Below the pieces are notes generated by a model. The model made no database searches and was not told the DNA's origin. It worked only from the letters and a program-made list of their open reading frames with translations. Both the position numbers and the translations under genes were made by a program. A DNA stretch of 64,000 nucleotides from Candidatus Binatia bacterium (GTDB taxonomy: Bacteria > Desulfobacterota > Binatia > UBA12015): assembly GCA_029248525.1 (NCBI GenBank), contig JAQWJE010000033.1, positions 1-64,000 on the forward strand. The letters are read 5' to 3'. This document shows positions 31,653 through 38,742 of the stretch, piece by piece; positions within the stretch are counted from its first letter, which is position 1; each line of letters starts with the position of its first letter.

Positions 31653-31695
31653 CACACTCGGTTTCGGTTGGCAGCTTGCCCTTCCGGTGCCGCTG

Positions 31696-32961
31696 ATGCC
31701 TACTGCGGGCATGGGTGCGAGAGCGTCAATCAAAGGGCCTTATCAGGGTAAATTTACTCCGAGCCTGCCACTCAATCTGGGCAGCGACTCGTTCATCAAC
31801 AACAAATACGAACATTACGCCTGGATGCGGGAAGAGGCGCCGGTCTGCCCGGGAAAAATCAGCCTCTTTCGACTCAAACTCCTCAGCCGTTACGAGGATT
31901 GTGCCCAACTGGCCAAGGACGAACGCTTTCGAAGGAATCGAACTCGGGCCGTGGGCGGATCGCGCTTTCCCATTCCCTTGCCCAAATCCGTTCAAGCGGT
32001 CGCCGACAGCATGATCGTCGAGGACGACCCCGAACATCGACGACTGCGCGGCCTGGTCAATCAGGCCTTCAAGCCCGCGGCGGTCAAGCGACTGGGCGAT
32101 CAAATCGAAGAACTGGCCGACCAGCTTCTCGACCGACTCCATGGGCAGCAGACGATCGAACTGCTTCGCGACTACGCTCTTCCGATCCCCGTCACCATGA
32201 TTCAGCGATTGATGGGCGTGCCCGAGCAGGAGATGCCCCAGTTCCGAAAGGTTCTGGGCCACCTCTCGGACGGACTCACCGGATTTCAGGTCATTCGCAC
32301 CTTCTTGTGGGACTTGCCGCGCAGCTTGAAATTCATGCGCGCGATGGTCGACAGGAAGCGCCATCATCCTGAGGACGATATCCTCACAGCACTCATCCAT
32401 GCTGAAGAAGAAGGCGATACTCTTTCCGAAGATGAGCTTTTGAGTATGTGCTTCCTTCTCATTATCGCCGGCTACGAAACAACCTCCCACCTGATCACCA
32501 ACGCCGTCCTGACCATGCTGCAACACCCCGACCAACTCGAACGTCTCCGCGAGGAACCAGGCCTGATCGGATCAGCCGTCGAGGAGGTGCAGCGATTCAA
32601 TGGACCTCTCCATGGGGCCAAACTTTCCTACGCCATCGAGGATATTGACTGGAACGGGGAGCTGATTCGTCGGGGAGAGCCCGTCATGCCGCTCTATGGT
32701 GCCGCAAACCATGACCCGACAGCTTTCGACAATCCCGAAACCTTCGATATCGCACGCGAGCCCAACCACCATTTCGGATTCGGCCATGGCGTGCACTTTT
32801 GCCTCGGTGCGCAACTCGCACGAATGGAAACAAAAGTGGCCCTGACGCGCCTCTTTGAGCGTTTTCCCGATCTACGGCTGGCGGTATCTCCGGAATCGCT
32901 GCAATTCGACAAACTGCCCGGCTGGCATCGTTATAAAGCGCTGCCGATTCGGCTGTTCTGA
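31696..32961 (+). CDS. Cytochrome P450 (first copy)
   Basis: About 421 residues from ATG 31696 (GTG 31687 and ATG 31711 are alternatives; none has a clear Shine-Dalgarno). P450 signatures: DDPEHRRLRGLVNQAF (helix C/D region), the I-helix AGYETTSH, VEEVQRFNGPLHG (ExxR-like K-helix region, where E-x-x-R reads EEVQR), and the heme loop FGFGHGVHFCLGA with the axial Cys. It should be a soluble bacterial monooxygenase needing ferredoxin and reductase, neither of which is adjacent. It resembles CYP families that hydroxylate terpenes, fatty acids or steroids. A second, only distantly similar P450 lies at 39.7 kb. Confidence 0.94.
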   Translation: MPTAGMGARASIKGPYQGKFTPSLPLNLGSDSFINNKYEHYAWMREEAPVCPGKISLFRLKLLSRYEDCAQLAKDERFRRNRTRAVGGSRFPIPLPKSVQAVADSMIVEDDPEHRRLRGLVNQAFKPAAVKRLGDQIEELADQLLDRLHGQQTIELLRDYALPIPVTMIQRLMGVPEQEMPQFRKVLGHLSDGLTGFQVIRTFLWDLPRSLKFMRAMVDRKRHHPEDDILTALIHAEEEGDTLSEDELLSMCFLLIIAGYETTSHLITNAVLTMLQHPDQLERLREEPGLIGSAVEEVQRFNGPLHGAKLSYAIEDIDWNGELIRRGEPVMPLYGAANHDPTAFDNPETFDIAREPNHHFGFGHGVHFCLGAQLARMETKVALTRLFERFPDLRLAVSPESLQFDKLPGWHRYKALPIRLF

Positions 32962-33034
32962 GGGAGCTTGCCGCGTCAAGTTGCCGCACACTTACAAAGT
33001 TGACTCCCTCCCGGCACCGAGGCATCGTCTCTGA

Positions 33035-34429
33035 ATGAGGTTTCAGGACACTCCCACCGCAAGCCTGATCGCAGAAACATGGATCCGTGCTGCACGACTC
33101 GTTTTCCTGCTACTCGTTGTCGCACTGCTCCTTCCAGTGGCGCGGGGCTTGGCGGATGCGGGAAACGAGTGTACCGGCGGGCGCTACATGGTTGGAGAAG
33201 CTTCCGGCGCAGCTTCACCGCTCGCCGACACGGTGATTGTGGTCGCAGGCGGGACCGTCTCGATGGAACCCTGCGGAGAACCGGATCGGACCCGCATCAA
33301 GCGCACTCGGCGCGGCATGGTGCTCAAAGCATCCTGGCGACAATGCAATCAGGACATCGGAAAGACCAAGTTACGCATGCGCACGGACGCCGACTGCCAA
33401 AAGGCTCGCGGCACGCTGGTCACACAAACCCCGAGGAGCCGTGTTCGCTTCGAGACCTCTCACCGGTGCGAGGTCGCAATTCTCTGCACCCCGCAAACAA
33501 TCCCCGTCGATACCAATGGGGATGGTTGCGAAAATTCTTGCCTTCCCTGCCCGGCGCTCCAATGCCAACCCGGGTATGGTCCTGTCGATACCGACGGGGA
33601 TGGCTGCCATGACGAGTGCGAAGTCACCGTGGATGTGGCTTGCGATGCCGATCGGGACTGCTCATCGGACAACCGCATGTACTGCGCGAAGCCGTCGGCC
33701 AGTTGCGGTTCCGCAGCGGAAGATGCGCCAGGTGTGTGCCGGATACCGCCGCAAAATTGCACTCTGGAATACGAACCCGTCTGCGGTTGCGATGGCACCA
33801 CATACAGCAATGCCTGCGTTGCCGCCGCAGCTGGCGTCAACGTCGCTTCGGAAGGAGCTTGCGAGAGGACTTGCGGAAGCCTTCCGCTCCCCGGTGTCCC
33901 GTCGGGTTGCGAAAACAACCAGATCTGCGATCTGCCGCCGAACACTTGCGACATCGCCGACCTCCCGGGGGTCTGCGTACAACAGCCCGACGCATGCGCC
34001 GAAATCTACCAACCGGTCTGTGGTTGCGATAACCAGACCTACGCCAATGACTGTGTTCGCCTGCAAGCAGGGGTCCCTCTGCAATTTGCCCGCGCCTGCG
34101 ACGAGCCATGCGCCACGGTGGATTGTCCGCCGGATAGTCGACCCCTCGACACCAACGGTGACGGGTGCGAGGACGCCTGCGAGGTGGCCTACGATATCCC
34201 GTGCACAACGAACTCGGATTGCTGGTGGCGAAGCACCTTATATTGCGCCACCGCCCCTGGCACCTGCGGCGAATCAGGTCCGGGGGTCTGCACCGCGGCC
34301 GCCGGGGCCTGCACCATGGAATACGATCCCGTCTGTGGTTGCGATGGCATGACTTACGGCAATGGCTGCAGCGCGGCCGCGGCCGGGATCAACATCGATA
34401 CGATCGGCGCTTGTGATAGCACCCGTTAG
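33035..34429 (+). CDS. Membrane-anchored/exported Kazal-repeat protein 1
   Basis: 464 residues. A hydrophobic signal or anchor lies at about 21-40. Residues 45-150 form an unrecognised domain with several Cys. Then come Cys-rich modules: [12 protein letters not shown] (158-169), module A1 (172-276: VDTDGDGC motif plus a Kazal domain ending GAC), module B (277-355: CGSLPLPG lead-in plus a Kazal domain), and module A2 (356-460). Each Kazal domain has the C-x-C-G/D-x-x-T-Y-x-N-x-C core. Kazal domains inhibit serine proteases, but the reactive-site residues here are not canonical enough to name a target. The DxNGDGC motifs look like calcium loops. The next gene has the order B-A. Confidence 0.85.
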
Positions 34430-34486
34430 GTCCGAGCGTTCAATTCGAGCACGACAACATCGGCAATGAGACAGGGAGAGTTGAAA

Positions 34487-35152
34487 ATGCGCTTCGATCG
34501 CTTTCGGATGATTGGTTGTTTTATGGCATTCCTGCTCGTTTCCGCCTGCGGAGGTTCCAGCATGCCCAAGGACTCGTGCGACCCTGAGACAGGCAGCTGC
34601 GAGCAAGTTTGCGGAGGGTTGCCGCTACCCGAAATGAGCACCGCTTGCGATGCCGACCAGGTCTGTGAGCGGCCGGCAGACAGCTGCAGAATCGCTGACC
34701 TGCAGGGAGTCTGCGTCGCCAAACCCGAATTATGTCCCGAGATCTACCAGCCGGTTTGTGCCTGTAACGGCCAGACCTATGGCAACAACTGCCTGCGTCT
34801 GCAGGCAGGTGCCGCATTGGATTTCCCGGGCGCCTGCGACCAGCCCTGCCCGGTTCTCGATTGCCCGCCCGGTAGCCGCCCCGTCGACGCCAATGGCAAT
34901 GGCTGTGCCACAACCTGCGAGGAGGCCTACGATGTCCCCTGCAGCGTCGAGGAAGACTGCTGGTGGCAAGACAATCTCTACTGCAAGCGACCTGAGGGAA
35001 CCTGTGGGAGTGTCGACGGAATCTGCACGACAAAGGCCGAAGGTTGCACGAGCGACTACACCCCGGTTTGCGGCTGTGATGAGGCCACATACAGCAACAG
35101 CTGCGACGCGGCCATCGCGGGCGTCAGTGTGGCAGCTTCAGGCCCCTGTTAG
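34487..35152 (+). CDS. Kazal-repeat lipoprotein 2 (truncated paralogue of the previous gene)
   Basis: The ATG at 34487 follows AGGGAGAG and gives 221 residues. The signal ends at LVSAC (Cys21), so it is a lipoprotein. Module B (38-117, starting CGGLPLPEM, Kazal core CACNGQTYGNNC) and module A (118-221, DCPPGSRPVDANGNGC, then CWWQDNLYC and a Kazal core CGCDEATYSNSC) closely match modules B and A2 of the upstream protein. Its stop (TAG) falls exactly where module-linker GAG occurs in gene 1, and recognisable B-module codons continue beyond it, so the gene was probably longer. Spacing to gene 1 is 57 nt. Confidence 0.85.
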   Translation: MRFDRFRMIGCFMAFLLVSACGGSSMPKDSCDPETGSCEQVCGGLPLPEMSTACDADQVCERPADSCRIADLQGVCVAKPELCPEIYQPVCACNGQTYGNNCLRLQAGAALDFPGACDQPCPVLDCPPGSRPVDANGNGCATTCEEAYDVPCSVEEDCWWQDNLYCKRPEGTCGSVDGICTTKAEGCTSDYTPVCGCDEATYSNSCDAAIAGVSVAASGPC

Positions 35153-35226
35153 AAAACATAGGGTGGATACCCGGAACCGGGCTTGGAGGAACCTGCCGGC
35201 TGCGCGGCTGAACAGGTCTGCGATAT
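35153..35226 (+). pseudogene. Decayed remnant of a further Kazal B module
   Basis: In the same frame as lipoprotein 2 and past its stop, the codons read K-T-stop-GGYPEPG...AGCAAEQVCDI. They line up with [12 protein letters not shown]...[11 protein letters not shown] of gene 1: E is replaced by the stop (GAG to TAG), R/K and T match, a second Cys is now TAG, then GS/GG, P-P and G match, the C and Q-x-C-D positions agree, and one 6-nt insertion is needed. Similarity ends at about 35226, just before a hairpin and the convergent symporter gene. Confidence 0.75.
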
Positions 35227-35228
35227 CC

Positions 35229-35248
35229 GGGGCGAGTCATCTCGCCCC
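35229..35248. terminator. Candidate hairpin between Kazal and symporter genes
   Basis: A perfect 8-bp inverted repeat, GGGGCGAG and CTCGCCCC, around a TCAT loop. It sits between the end of the Kazal remnant (plus) and the stop of the symporter gene (minus, 35255). It is strong in G+C but no U-run follows on either strand; it may act as a transcription roadblock for convergent transcripts. Confidence 0.4.
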
Positions 35249-35254
35249 CAGCCG

Positions 35255-36124
35255 TCAAGAGGTTCCGGCAGAGGCCCCGAGCCACCGGAGGCGTGCCCGG
35301 AAACCCACCAACAGCAACAGGGCGGCCGGCATCATGACTCCAGAATAGACAAACAACGGGACGTTGGGATCGATTTGGGGGAAGGCAGACGCCAGAACAA
35401 CCATCCCGAGAAGCACGTTCTTGACGCAGAGCTCGATGGCGATCGTCACTGCATCCTCAAGCGTCTGGCCGAAGATCAGAGGCACGACAACGCCAACCAG
35501 GACGCCCAGCAGGACCAGGCACAAGACCGGCAGGAATGCCTGCTCGAGCAGAGCCAATGGCGCTTCTGGCTGATCCGCGGTGTCCCAGATCATCACGGCC
35601 AACAAGGCCAGTCCACTGAGGCCTGTAACCCTCCGTTCGTAGCGAGCCGCCTGAGGATACCCCTCGCGCACAAGCATCCCCAAGGCCACGGGCAATACCG
35701 TCAAAATGCCCAACTGCAGAGCGGTATCGAGAACCGGAACAATCACGGTTTCCGCCTCGGCACCCAGCAAGCCTTGCGTTCCCCGAATCCACAAGGGGAG
35801 TGTAAATAGTGCGGCAAACGTCGCTGTCGCTGTAAGCGTGATCGACAAGGCGGTATGCGCGCGGCCGAAATGCACCAGAAGATTGGAACCAGCGCCACCG
35901 GGAAGGGCCGCGCAAACAACCATTCCAAGACCGAGGAGAGGCGGAAGATCGAAGAACACGGCCAGGGCGCCGCCCACAAAGGGCATCAAGAATAATTGCA
36001 GGCAGAGTCCGGTCACGACTGGCGCTTTGACCGACAAAACCCGGCGAAAATCCTGAACGGTCAGAGCCAGCCCCATGCCGAACATCAGGCTGAACATCAG
36101 CGCCTGAGCGATCGAAGAATTCAT
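35255..36124 (-). CDS. Bile acid:sodium symporter (BASS) family transporter
   Basis: About 289 residues from ATG 36124 (GTG 36136, with AAGGAGGG just upstream, is an alternative). Nine to ten hydrophobic helices are predicted. The start SLMFGMGLALTVQDF and the CAALPGGAGSNLLVHFGRA segment are family signatures, and ELCVKNVLLGMVVLA is the second crossover-helix region. Members carry bile acids, pantoate, keto acids or other organic anions with Na+. The bacterial substrates are poorly known. It sits 39 nt downstream of the sulfotransferase gene on the same strand, inside the P450/SDR/sulfotransferase region, so uptake of a sterol-, bile-acid- or terpenoid-like anion is conceivable. Confidence 0.87.
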   Translation of the reverse strand: MNSSIAQALMFSLMFGMGLALTVQDFRRVLSVKAPVVTGLCLQLFLMPFVGGALAVFFDLPPLLGLGMVVCAALPGGAGSNLLVHFGRAHTALSITLTATATFAALFTLPLWIRGTQGLLGAEAETVIVPVLDTALQLGILTVLPVALGMLVREGYPQAARYERRVTGLSGLALLAVMIWDTADQPEAPLALLEQAFLPVLCLVLLGVLVGVVVPLIFGQTLEDAVTIAIELCVKNVLLGMVVLASAFPQIDPNVPLFVYSGVMMPAALLLLVGFRARLRWLGASAGTS

Positions 36125-36163
36125 CGGATCCTGCACCAGCCCTCCTTTTCCGCAGAGCGGCTT

Positions 36164-37569: not shown

Positions 37570-38742
37570 ATGAGCCAAGATCCAATCACTGAAATCACTG
37601 ATATGACAGCAGCCTATCAGGCGGCTGCGACGCAGGGCGATGCTGCCGCAAAGGCCTATGCCGAACTCTCCAAAACGCTTCTTCTGATCGAACAGGAGTA
37701 TGTCTGCGCCGATCCGACTCTTACGTCGCAGCAGCGCGCAGCACGCCGGTATCTGGTTGCCAATACCCTCCAGCACGGTTTCCACTGCTGGTTCGACTGC
37801 GATCCGCGGCGCCCCTGGTTTCACCGCTGGCTCAGCCCGACCAAGAAATTGCTCGGGGACAACCCCGATGCCGTCTATTACGGCTGCGTCGTGGACCCGG
37901 CCTATTCCTACCGAATTCGCGGCAACACCATGGATGCGGCGTATACCTCGTTTACGGTGGAGCGCGGTGTGGAGAACGGAAATATTTCGGCCGGCTTGAC
38001 CGCTACGCTGAACGATGGGGAATTTGAAGTGAACCCCGACGGCAGCTTCGAAATCATCGCAAGCCCCGAGCCACAAGAGAAAAATTGGCTCAAGCTCGAG
38101 CCGGGTGCCGGGGGAATTACCACCCGCCATTATTGGGAGATGGAGCGCCAGATCGCTGCGGACCCGACCTTCCACGTCCCTCTCTGGATCGAACCGATCG
38201 ATGATCCCGGTCCAGGCGCATTGATGGACGATGCCGCTGTCGCCGCAGGAATTCAGCGGGTCATCAACTTCGTCCGTGGAACCACCCTCGACTTCCCGGA
38301 AATTCCCGAGGAACTGATGCCCGCATGGATCTCAAAGGAAGTGAACAAATTCGCGGGCGGGGATAATGACAACGAATTGATTGGCTACTCGGCCAAGGAC
38401 ATCGACTATCGACAAACGATCTACGACCTCGGCCCCGATGATGCATTGGTGATGCGGGGGCGCTTCCCGCGCTGCCGGATGGGTAACGTCGTGATCTGGA
38501 ACGAACAGCTTCAGACACCTCCTTATATCAACCGAAACGTGTCGCTGAACCGGCGTCAGGTCCAATACCTGCCGGACGGAAGCTTCGAAATCGTCATCGC
38601 ACACAAGGACCCGGGCGTGCCCAACTGGATCGATGCTGCCGGCCAAAAAACCGGGATGATTTTTTGGCGGTTCCTCTTGCCCGAAGAGGAAGTTCCCCCA
38701 ATCGAAACTCGACTGGTGAACGTCGCGTCCTTGCGTAACTGA
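37570..38742 (+). CDS. DUF1214-like protein with two internal repeats
   Basis: The ATG at 37570 follows GGCGAGGAGA and gives 390 residues. Residues about 20-110 are helical. Two copies of a beta-rich unit follow: one with NPDGSFEIIASPEPQEKNW and RHYWEME at about 160-215, the other with LPDGSFEIVIAHKDPGVPNW and IFWRFLL at about 335-375. The pattern PDGSFEI, about nine residues, then NW resembles the DUF1214 C-terminal region. No signal peptide or catalytic motif is seen. Such proteins often neighbour sulfotransferases and P450s in actinobacteria-like genomes, and this one is divergent from a sulfotransferase. Function unknown. Confidence 0.75.
   Translation: MSQDPITEITDMTAAYQAAATQGDAAAKAYAELSKTLLLIEQEYVCADPTLTSQQRAARRYLVANTLQHGFHCWFDCDPRRPWFHRWLSPTKKLLGDNPDAVYYGCVVDPAYSYRIRGNTMDAAYTSFTVERGVENGNISAGLTATLNDGEFEVNPDGSFEIIASPEPQEKNWLKLEPGAGGITTRHYWEMERQIAADPTFHVPLWIEPIDDPGPGALMDDAAVAAGIQRVINFVRGTTLDFPEIPEELMPAWISKEVNKFAGGDNDNELIGYSAKDIDYRQTIYDLGPDDALVMRGRFPRCRMGNVVIWNEQLQTPPYINRNVSLNRRQVQYLPDGSFEIVIAHKDPGVPNWIDAAGQKTGMIFWRFLLPEEEVPPIETRLVNVASLRN

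Follow-up and report, generated by a model that had tools for sequence, protein, structure and literature searches.

Shortening of a gene through a shift of its stop codon is a described process (Vakhrusheva et al. 2011, J Mol Evol, cited in PMC6764699 and PMC4161906). In this process, a stop that arises upstream trims the protein, and the old coding sequence is left behind it; the passages of PMC4161906 on overlapping gene pairs further describe how convergent neighbours have their ends displaced when stop codons move. Here we analyzed a window of 64,000 nucleotides, i.e., the whole stretch of DNA under study, from Candidatus Binatia bacterium (contig JAQWJE010000033.1), in which the shortening of one gene for a Kazal-type lipoprotein (gene 2) is of this ordinary kind: in-frame coding remains of the longer form are present past the current stop. 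The locus differs from such stop shifts in that gene 2 lost one module of a repeat array, and what is left of this module may extend over the end of a convergent gene; it differs from the overlapping pairs in those passages of PMC4161906, which are formed by genes that are present, in that one partner here would be a dead module. The other closely related system is that of the Kazal-type inhibitors (PF00050, PF07648). All five intact modules of the locus exceed the PF00050 cut-off, and gene 2 matches solved Kazal inhibitors, among them SPI-1 (E 2.8e-7) and pancreatic secretory trypsin inhibitor (E 2.9e-5); in contrast to that known system, the modules are bacterial, are longer (84 and 102 profile positions) and carry further cysteines ahead of each Kazal core. 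Among the literature matches listed for bacterial Kazal proteins, no title concerned this protein type.

Gene 1 and gene 2 form a tandem pair on the + strand, both with Kazal domains (Table 1). Gene 1 has three Kazal_1 stretches (E 4.9e-17), and its N-terminus, read by eye, is signal-like and is followed by an N-terminal region and then by modules A-B-A. Gene 2, for which the ATG at 34487 was used (an alternative ATG lies at 34466), has two Kazal_1 stretches (E 7e-11), a lipobox-like LVSAC (again a by-eye reading) and modules B-A, the TAG coming immediately after the last Cys of module A. This module order had been proposed in an earlier, sequence-only reading of the locus and was confirmed by A and B profiles, which were made from the locus itself: the B profile was built from the intact B modules of gene 1 and gene 2, so that both score against their own profile, and the A module of gene 2 is itself included in the A profile. 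Genome-wide, PF00050 yields five matches, all in genes 1 and 2 (29.6-35.4 bits, cut-off 21); these are the five intact modules, and the degenerate third B module described below is not among them. The loop residues before PVCGC vary by module (CTLEY, CAEIY, CTMEY, CPEIY and CTSDY). An AlphaFold model of the gene 2 protein, made from a three-row alignment, had a mean pLDDT of 47.6 and was too poor for use. Judging from the family, the product of gene 2 is most likely a membrane-seated lipoprotein that blocks serine proteases via its two remaining Kazal loops; together with the gene 1 product, it should act against serine proteases of competitors, of predators or of the cell itself.

Table 1. 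Features of the Kazal locus and its convergent neighbour; positions are those of the window.
Feature	Position	Strand	Basis
Gene 1, Kazal protein, 464 aa, ends TAG	33035..34429	+	open frame
Intact B module, gene 1 residues 276-359	33860..34111	+	B profile, 182.8 bits
Gene 2, lipoprotein with Kazal modules B-A, 221 aa	34487..35152	+	open frame
Intact B module, gene 2 residues 38-121	34598..34849	+	B profile, 183.2 bits
Intact A module, gene 2 residues 121-221	34847..35149	+	A profile, 194.3 bits
First TAG, replacing the linker Glu codon GAG	35150..35152	+	codon alignment
Degenerate third B module, first part, KT(stop)GGYPEPGLEEPAGCAAEQVCDI	35153..35227	+	B profile, 35150-35239, 15.3 bits
Second TAG, at the place of the Cys codon (TGC) that opens CGS/CGG in both intact B modules	35159..35161	+	profile and codon alignment
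Degenerate third B module, probable second part, to PEACPETHQ (gene 2: PELCPEIYQ)	35228..35311	+	B profile, 35240-35314, 4.0 bits
Perfect 8-bp GC-rich hairpin GGGGCGAG-TCAT-CTCGCCCC, inside the remnant, between convergent stops	35229..35248		sequence search
Transporter gene, SBF (bile acid:sodium symporter type), convergent, stop TGA 35257-35255	35255..36136	-	PF01758

Behind the TAG of gene 2 stands an in-frame, degenerate third B module, and this remnant is real. The frame continues past the stop as (stop)KT(stop)GGYPEPGLEEPAGCAAEQVCDIRGESSRPQPSRGSGRGPEPPEACPETHQQ, with the codons TGT (35147) TAG (35150) AAA ACA TAG (35159) GGT GGA TAC CCG ... GGC TGC (35201) ... CAG GTC TGC (35219) GAT ATC. 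The sequence-only reading had claimed that the two TAGs replace a linker Glu and a Cys, which holds: in each of the two intact B modules, that of gene 1 included, GAG stands opposite the first TAG and TGC opposite the second. The linkers can be set side by side as C-ERT-CGS in gene 1, C-(TAG)KT-(TAG)GG in the remnant and C-TSRT-CGG in a protein of another genome of the same family (G008), where the linker stands between an A and an intact B. The remnant had been followed to 35226; it proved longer, extending to about 35311, with the second part weaker. The profile match stops at position 51 of 84 (codon 35309-35311), and the Kazal core (Y.PVC.C...TY.N.C) is absent; with no core and with two TAGs inside, the third B module fails as a working Kazal domain. 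The stretch behind the stop of gene 1 (55 codons), searched for a like remnant, contained none (0.2 bits).

With the profile built from the two intact B modules, the 55 codons from 35150 score 20.3 bits. This score was reached in 0/3000 dinucleotide shuffles (maximum 4.6) and in 0/9443 other stretches (maximum 9.3), which were of the same length, partly overlapping and drawn from both strands of the whole window minus 33030-35330; this codon-level test is strong and bears out the claim that a further B module is readable past the gene 2 TAG. In control frames, i.e., both remaining forward frames and one reverse frame, the score was -2.0 bits or less, and with the whole of gene 2 placed in front, the third B module scored 17.6 bits. 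Among the 167 post-stop stretches of the window's open frames of at least 150 codons, the remnant ranks first with the B profile, the next scoring 7.9 and the third 2.8 bits. Divided into parts, the first 30 codons keep a score reached by 0/3000 shuffles and 0/9466 stretches, and the last 25 codons one reached by 1/3000 and 22/9471, respectively. The stretch that starts at 37590 (7.9-9.3 bits) holds a Cys-rich reading at 37626-37763, in another frame within a long open frame, which scores 7.0 bits with the B profile and was taken as chance.

The signal depends on which profile is used. When relatives were searched for B modules by regular expression, a single one came up; an iterative profile gave 52 rows besides the two of the locus. 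With a general profile of these 52 modules, the own two left out, the remnant scores 9.5 bits (1/3000 shuffles and 1/9443 stretches reach this score; range 9.5-10.5), and the unrelated post-stop stretch at 37590 gets 9.0-9.3. The remnant signal is therefore mostly specific to this locus. Direct nucleotide alignment, which had been suggested as a check, was weak: for the B module of gene 2, the score is reached by 51/5000 shuffles and 61/3976 real stretches, and for that of gene 1 by 631/5000 and 784/3976. Hence, the predicted codon-level similarity past 35152 is above chance by the B profile of the locus and marginal by nucleotide alignment alone. A chance likeness of untranslated DNA would agree with the weak nucleotide alignment and with a general-profile score barely above that of the next post-stop stretch (9.5 vs 9.0), but the profile of the locus's own modules lifts the remnant far over all controls, and we regard such a coincidence as highly improbable. 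It should be noted that the case rests on the locus-specific profile, because neither the general profile nor the nucleotide alignment would be proof of the remnant if taken singly.

The claim that gene 2 formerly ran in frame into a third type-B module and now ends at a nonsense codon is thus supported. Positions 33035-35809 form one frame (gene 1, intergenic region, gene 2 and remnant) that is broken by TAGs only, at 34427, 35150, 35159 and 35807, as would be expected if TAG were read through or reassigned and a longer product were made. However, of 41 long open frames in the window that do not overlap one another (not all of them confirmed genes), 13 are closed by TAG, which therefore looks like an ordinary stop, on which ground recoding was rejected; moreover, both intact B modules have Cys where the second TAG sits, and the product of readthrough would lack a Kazal core and go antisense through the transporter gene, so that this explanation is barely conceivable. 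Contraction of the array through unequal recombination between modules, as the sequence-only reading had proposed, would draw on the alternation of A and B modules that is repeated in both genes. Recombination should, however, leave whole or hybrid modules, whereas the remnant has two nonsense codons, missing Cys residues and no core. Contraction by recombination is therefore very unlikely, and the evidence points instead to nonsense, decay and, probably, deletion toward the neighbour.

The neighbour is the convergent transporter gene, which matches PF01758 with E 9.9e-30 (104.1 bits, cut-off 24.3) and TIGR00841 with E 2.3e-39, under the cut-off of the latter. A whole B module (84 positions, 252 bases) starting at 35147 would reach about 35398, well inside the conserved part of the transporter; thus, the Kazal core cannot be in place, and part of the module has been lost. 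In tblastn, the transporter aligns with its nearest relative, at 52% identity, up to residue 276 (codon 35311-35309), the same codon at which the profile match of the remnant stops. The last 16 codons of the transporter, residues 278-293 (35305-35258), lie on the strand opposite the module remnant. When the 3' ends of 18 homologous transporters, including two from the same genome, were read in antisense, the 54 readings reached at most 1.7 bits with the B profile, vs 4.0 bits for the second part of the remnant.

We consider it probable that the ancestor of gene 2 encoded more Kazal-type modules, B-A-B or a longer chain, and was shortened by nonsense, decay and a deletion toward the transporter with a junction between about 35228 and 35312. 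The deletion would have taken the Kazal core of the third B module and anything beyond it, so that the convergent transporter gene would now have its 3' end next to mid-module sequence. The nonsense codon right after the last Cys of module A would have provided gene 2 with a clean end, with decay of the stretch behind it; no order of these steps is implied. If the junction lies at 35306-35312, the last 16 codons and the stop of the transporter would have been drawn from the antisense of the broken module. Because the remnant and the transporter homology end together and the antisense controls stay that low, a deletion junction exactly at the end of the homology, with a new transporter tail, is suggested, but the evidence for it is only suggestive: that this junction gave the transporter a new C-terminal tail of 16 residues with its stop, antisense of a dead inhibitor module, is a tentative possibility that we hold somewhat short of even.

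Several observations speak against this deletion or its position. The end of the transporter homology is fuzzy: it falls at residue 276 or 277 for the nearest relative (tblastn vs genome search), at 280 or 282 for the second (43%) and at 275 or 284 for the third (36%), and two relatives at 30-31% identity reach 289 and 293. The tails of the two nearest relatives measure 17 and 15 residues, vs 16 here, and are basic as well; the tail may thus be ancient, and the agreement between the two ends accidental. The second half of the remnant is weak when taken alone (22/9471). Accordingly, nonsense followed by internal decay only, through point changes and small deletions, with the transporter uninvolved and any likeness beyond about 35227 due to chance, deserves consideration: the first 30 codons hold most of the signal (15.3 of 20.3 bits), and the similar length of the tails in the two nearest relatives also speaks for it. 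Against it, the second part is collinear, in frame and rare by chance (1/3000 shuffles), and the rest of the module has no room before the conserved part of the transporter. We consider decay without a deletion toward the transporter unlikely, and prefer the history that includes this deletion.

The hairpin inside the remnant is the sole site of its kind in the genome at up to one mismatch. It may end the transcripts of both gene 2 and the transporter; there is no T run. A terminator scan of 32900-35400 gave two sites; each lies on the - strand, and neither coincides with the hairpin. The window contains fourteen perfect stems of at least 8 bp, so that one such hairpin is not rare, and the RNA folding of 35150-35275 is unremarkable (z -1.63; 15/200 shuffles equally good).

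The family sample comprised 14 genomes including the one analyzed; one other among them is of the same genus, G058, which belongs to the same species and is 63% complete. Over 6.55 kb, the two are ~99.7% identical, with 15 substitutions and one three-base insertion, a TAC in G058 at 31663, between the SDR-like and P450 genes. No difference was found at 35132-35485; therefore, G058 has the same gene 2 stop and the same remnant. No intact longer gene 2 was found in a relative, which weighs against the proposed history, although the sole other genome of the genus in the sample is of the same species and identical here. The sequence-only reading had named a stop shared by all relatives as an argument against itself; the stop is formally so shared, but a single relative that is so nearly identical cannot decide the matter. 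Gene 2 holds 8 of the 15 substitutions, four of which alter the protein, i.e., 8 in 666 bases vs 5 events in 5883, where a run of three neighbouring changes is treated as a single event (Fisher p 9e-6); recombination or an assembly error between modules is a possible cause of this excess.

More distant relatives bear on the order of the modules. Gene 1 has matches at 1e-10 in 13/148 genomes of the class, and the B module at 1e-8 in 9/395 genomes of the phylum, the own genome counted in each case. Of 11 listed proteins of other genomes with at least two Kazal cores, 10 are without the DTNGDGC-like motif of module A and look like rows of B-like modules. The eleventh, from G008, has an intact B after an A in another gene arrangement. 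The G008 protein thus supports A-B as an older module order, but its alignment, which starts at the N-terminus, is with gene 1, and it is no ortholog of gene 2.

For the age of the loss, 26 codons were aligned by hand. At the protein level, the two intact B modules agree at 12/26 positions, and the remnant agrees with each of them at 11/26 and 10/26, respectively; at third codon positions, the intact pair agrees at 15/26, vs 9/26 for the remnant with each. Measured against the module family, the loss is therefore old, or else the decay was quick. The loss had been described as recent, which cannot be claimed, and both TAGs also occur in the other genome of the species.

No known principle is changed by this finding. 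C-terminal shortening by a new stop is a known process, and the possible tail of the transporter, put forward as a hypothesis, is the most unusual part. In the locus, the loss of C-terminal modules from bacterial repeat proteins by nonsense, decay and, probably, deletion can still be read, and perhaps it also shows how a neighbour gene acquires a new tail; if true, the tail junction would amount to overprinting on a small scale, with both parents still recognisable.
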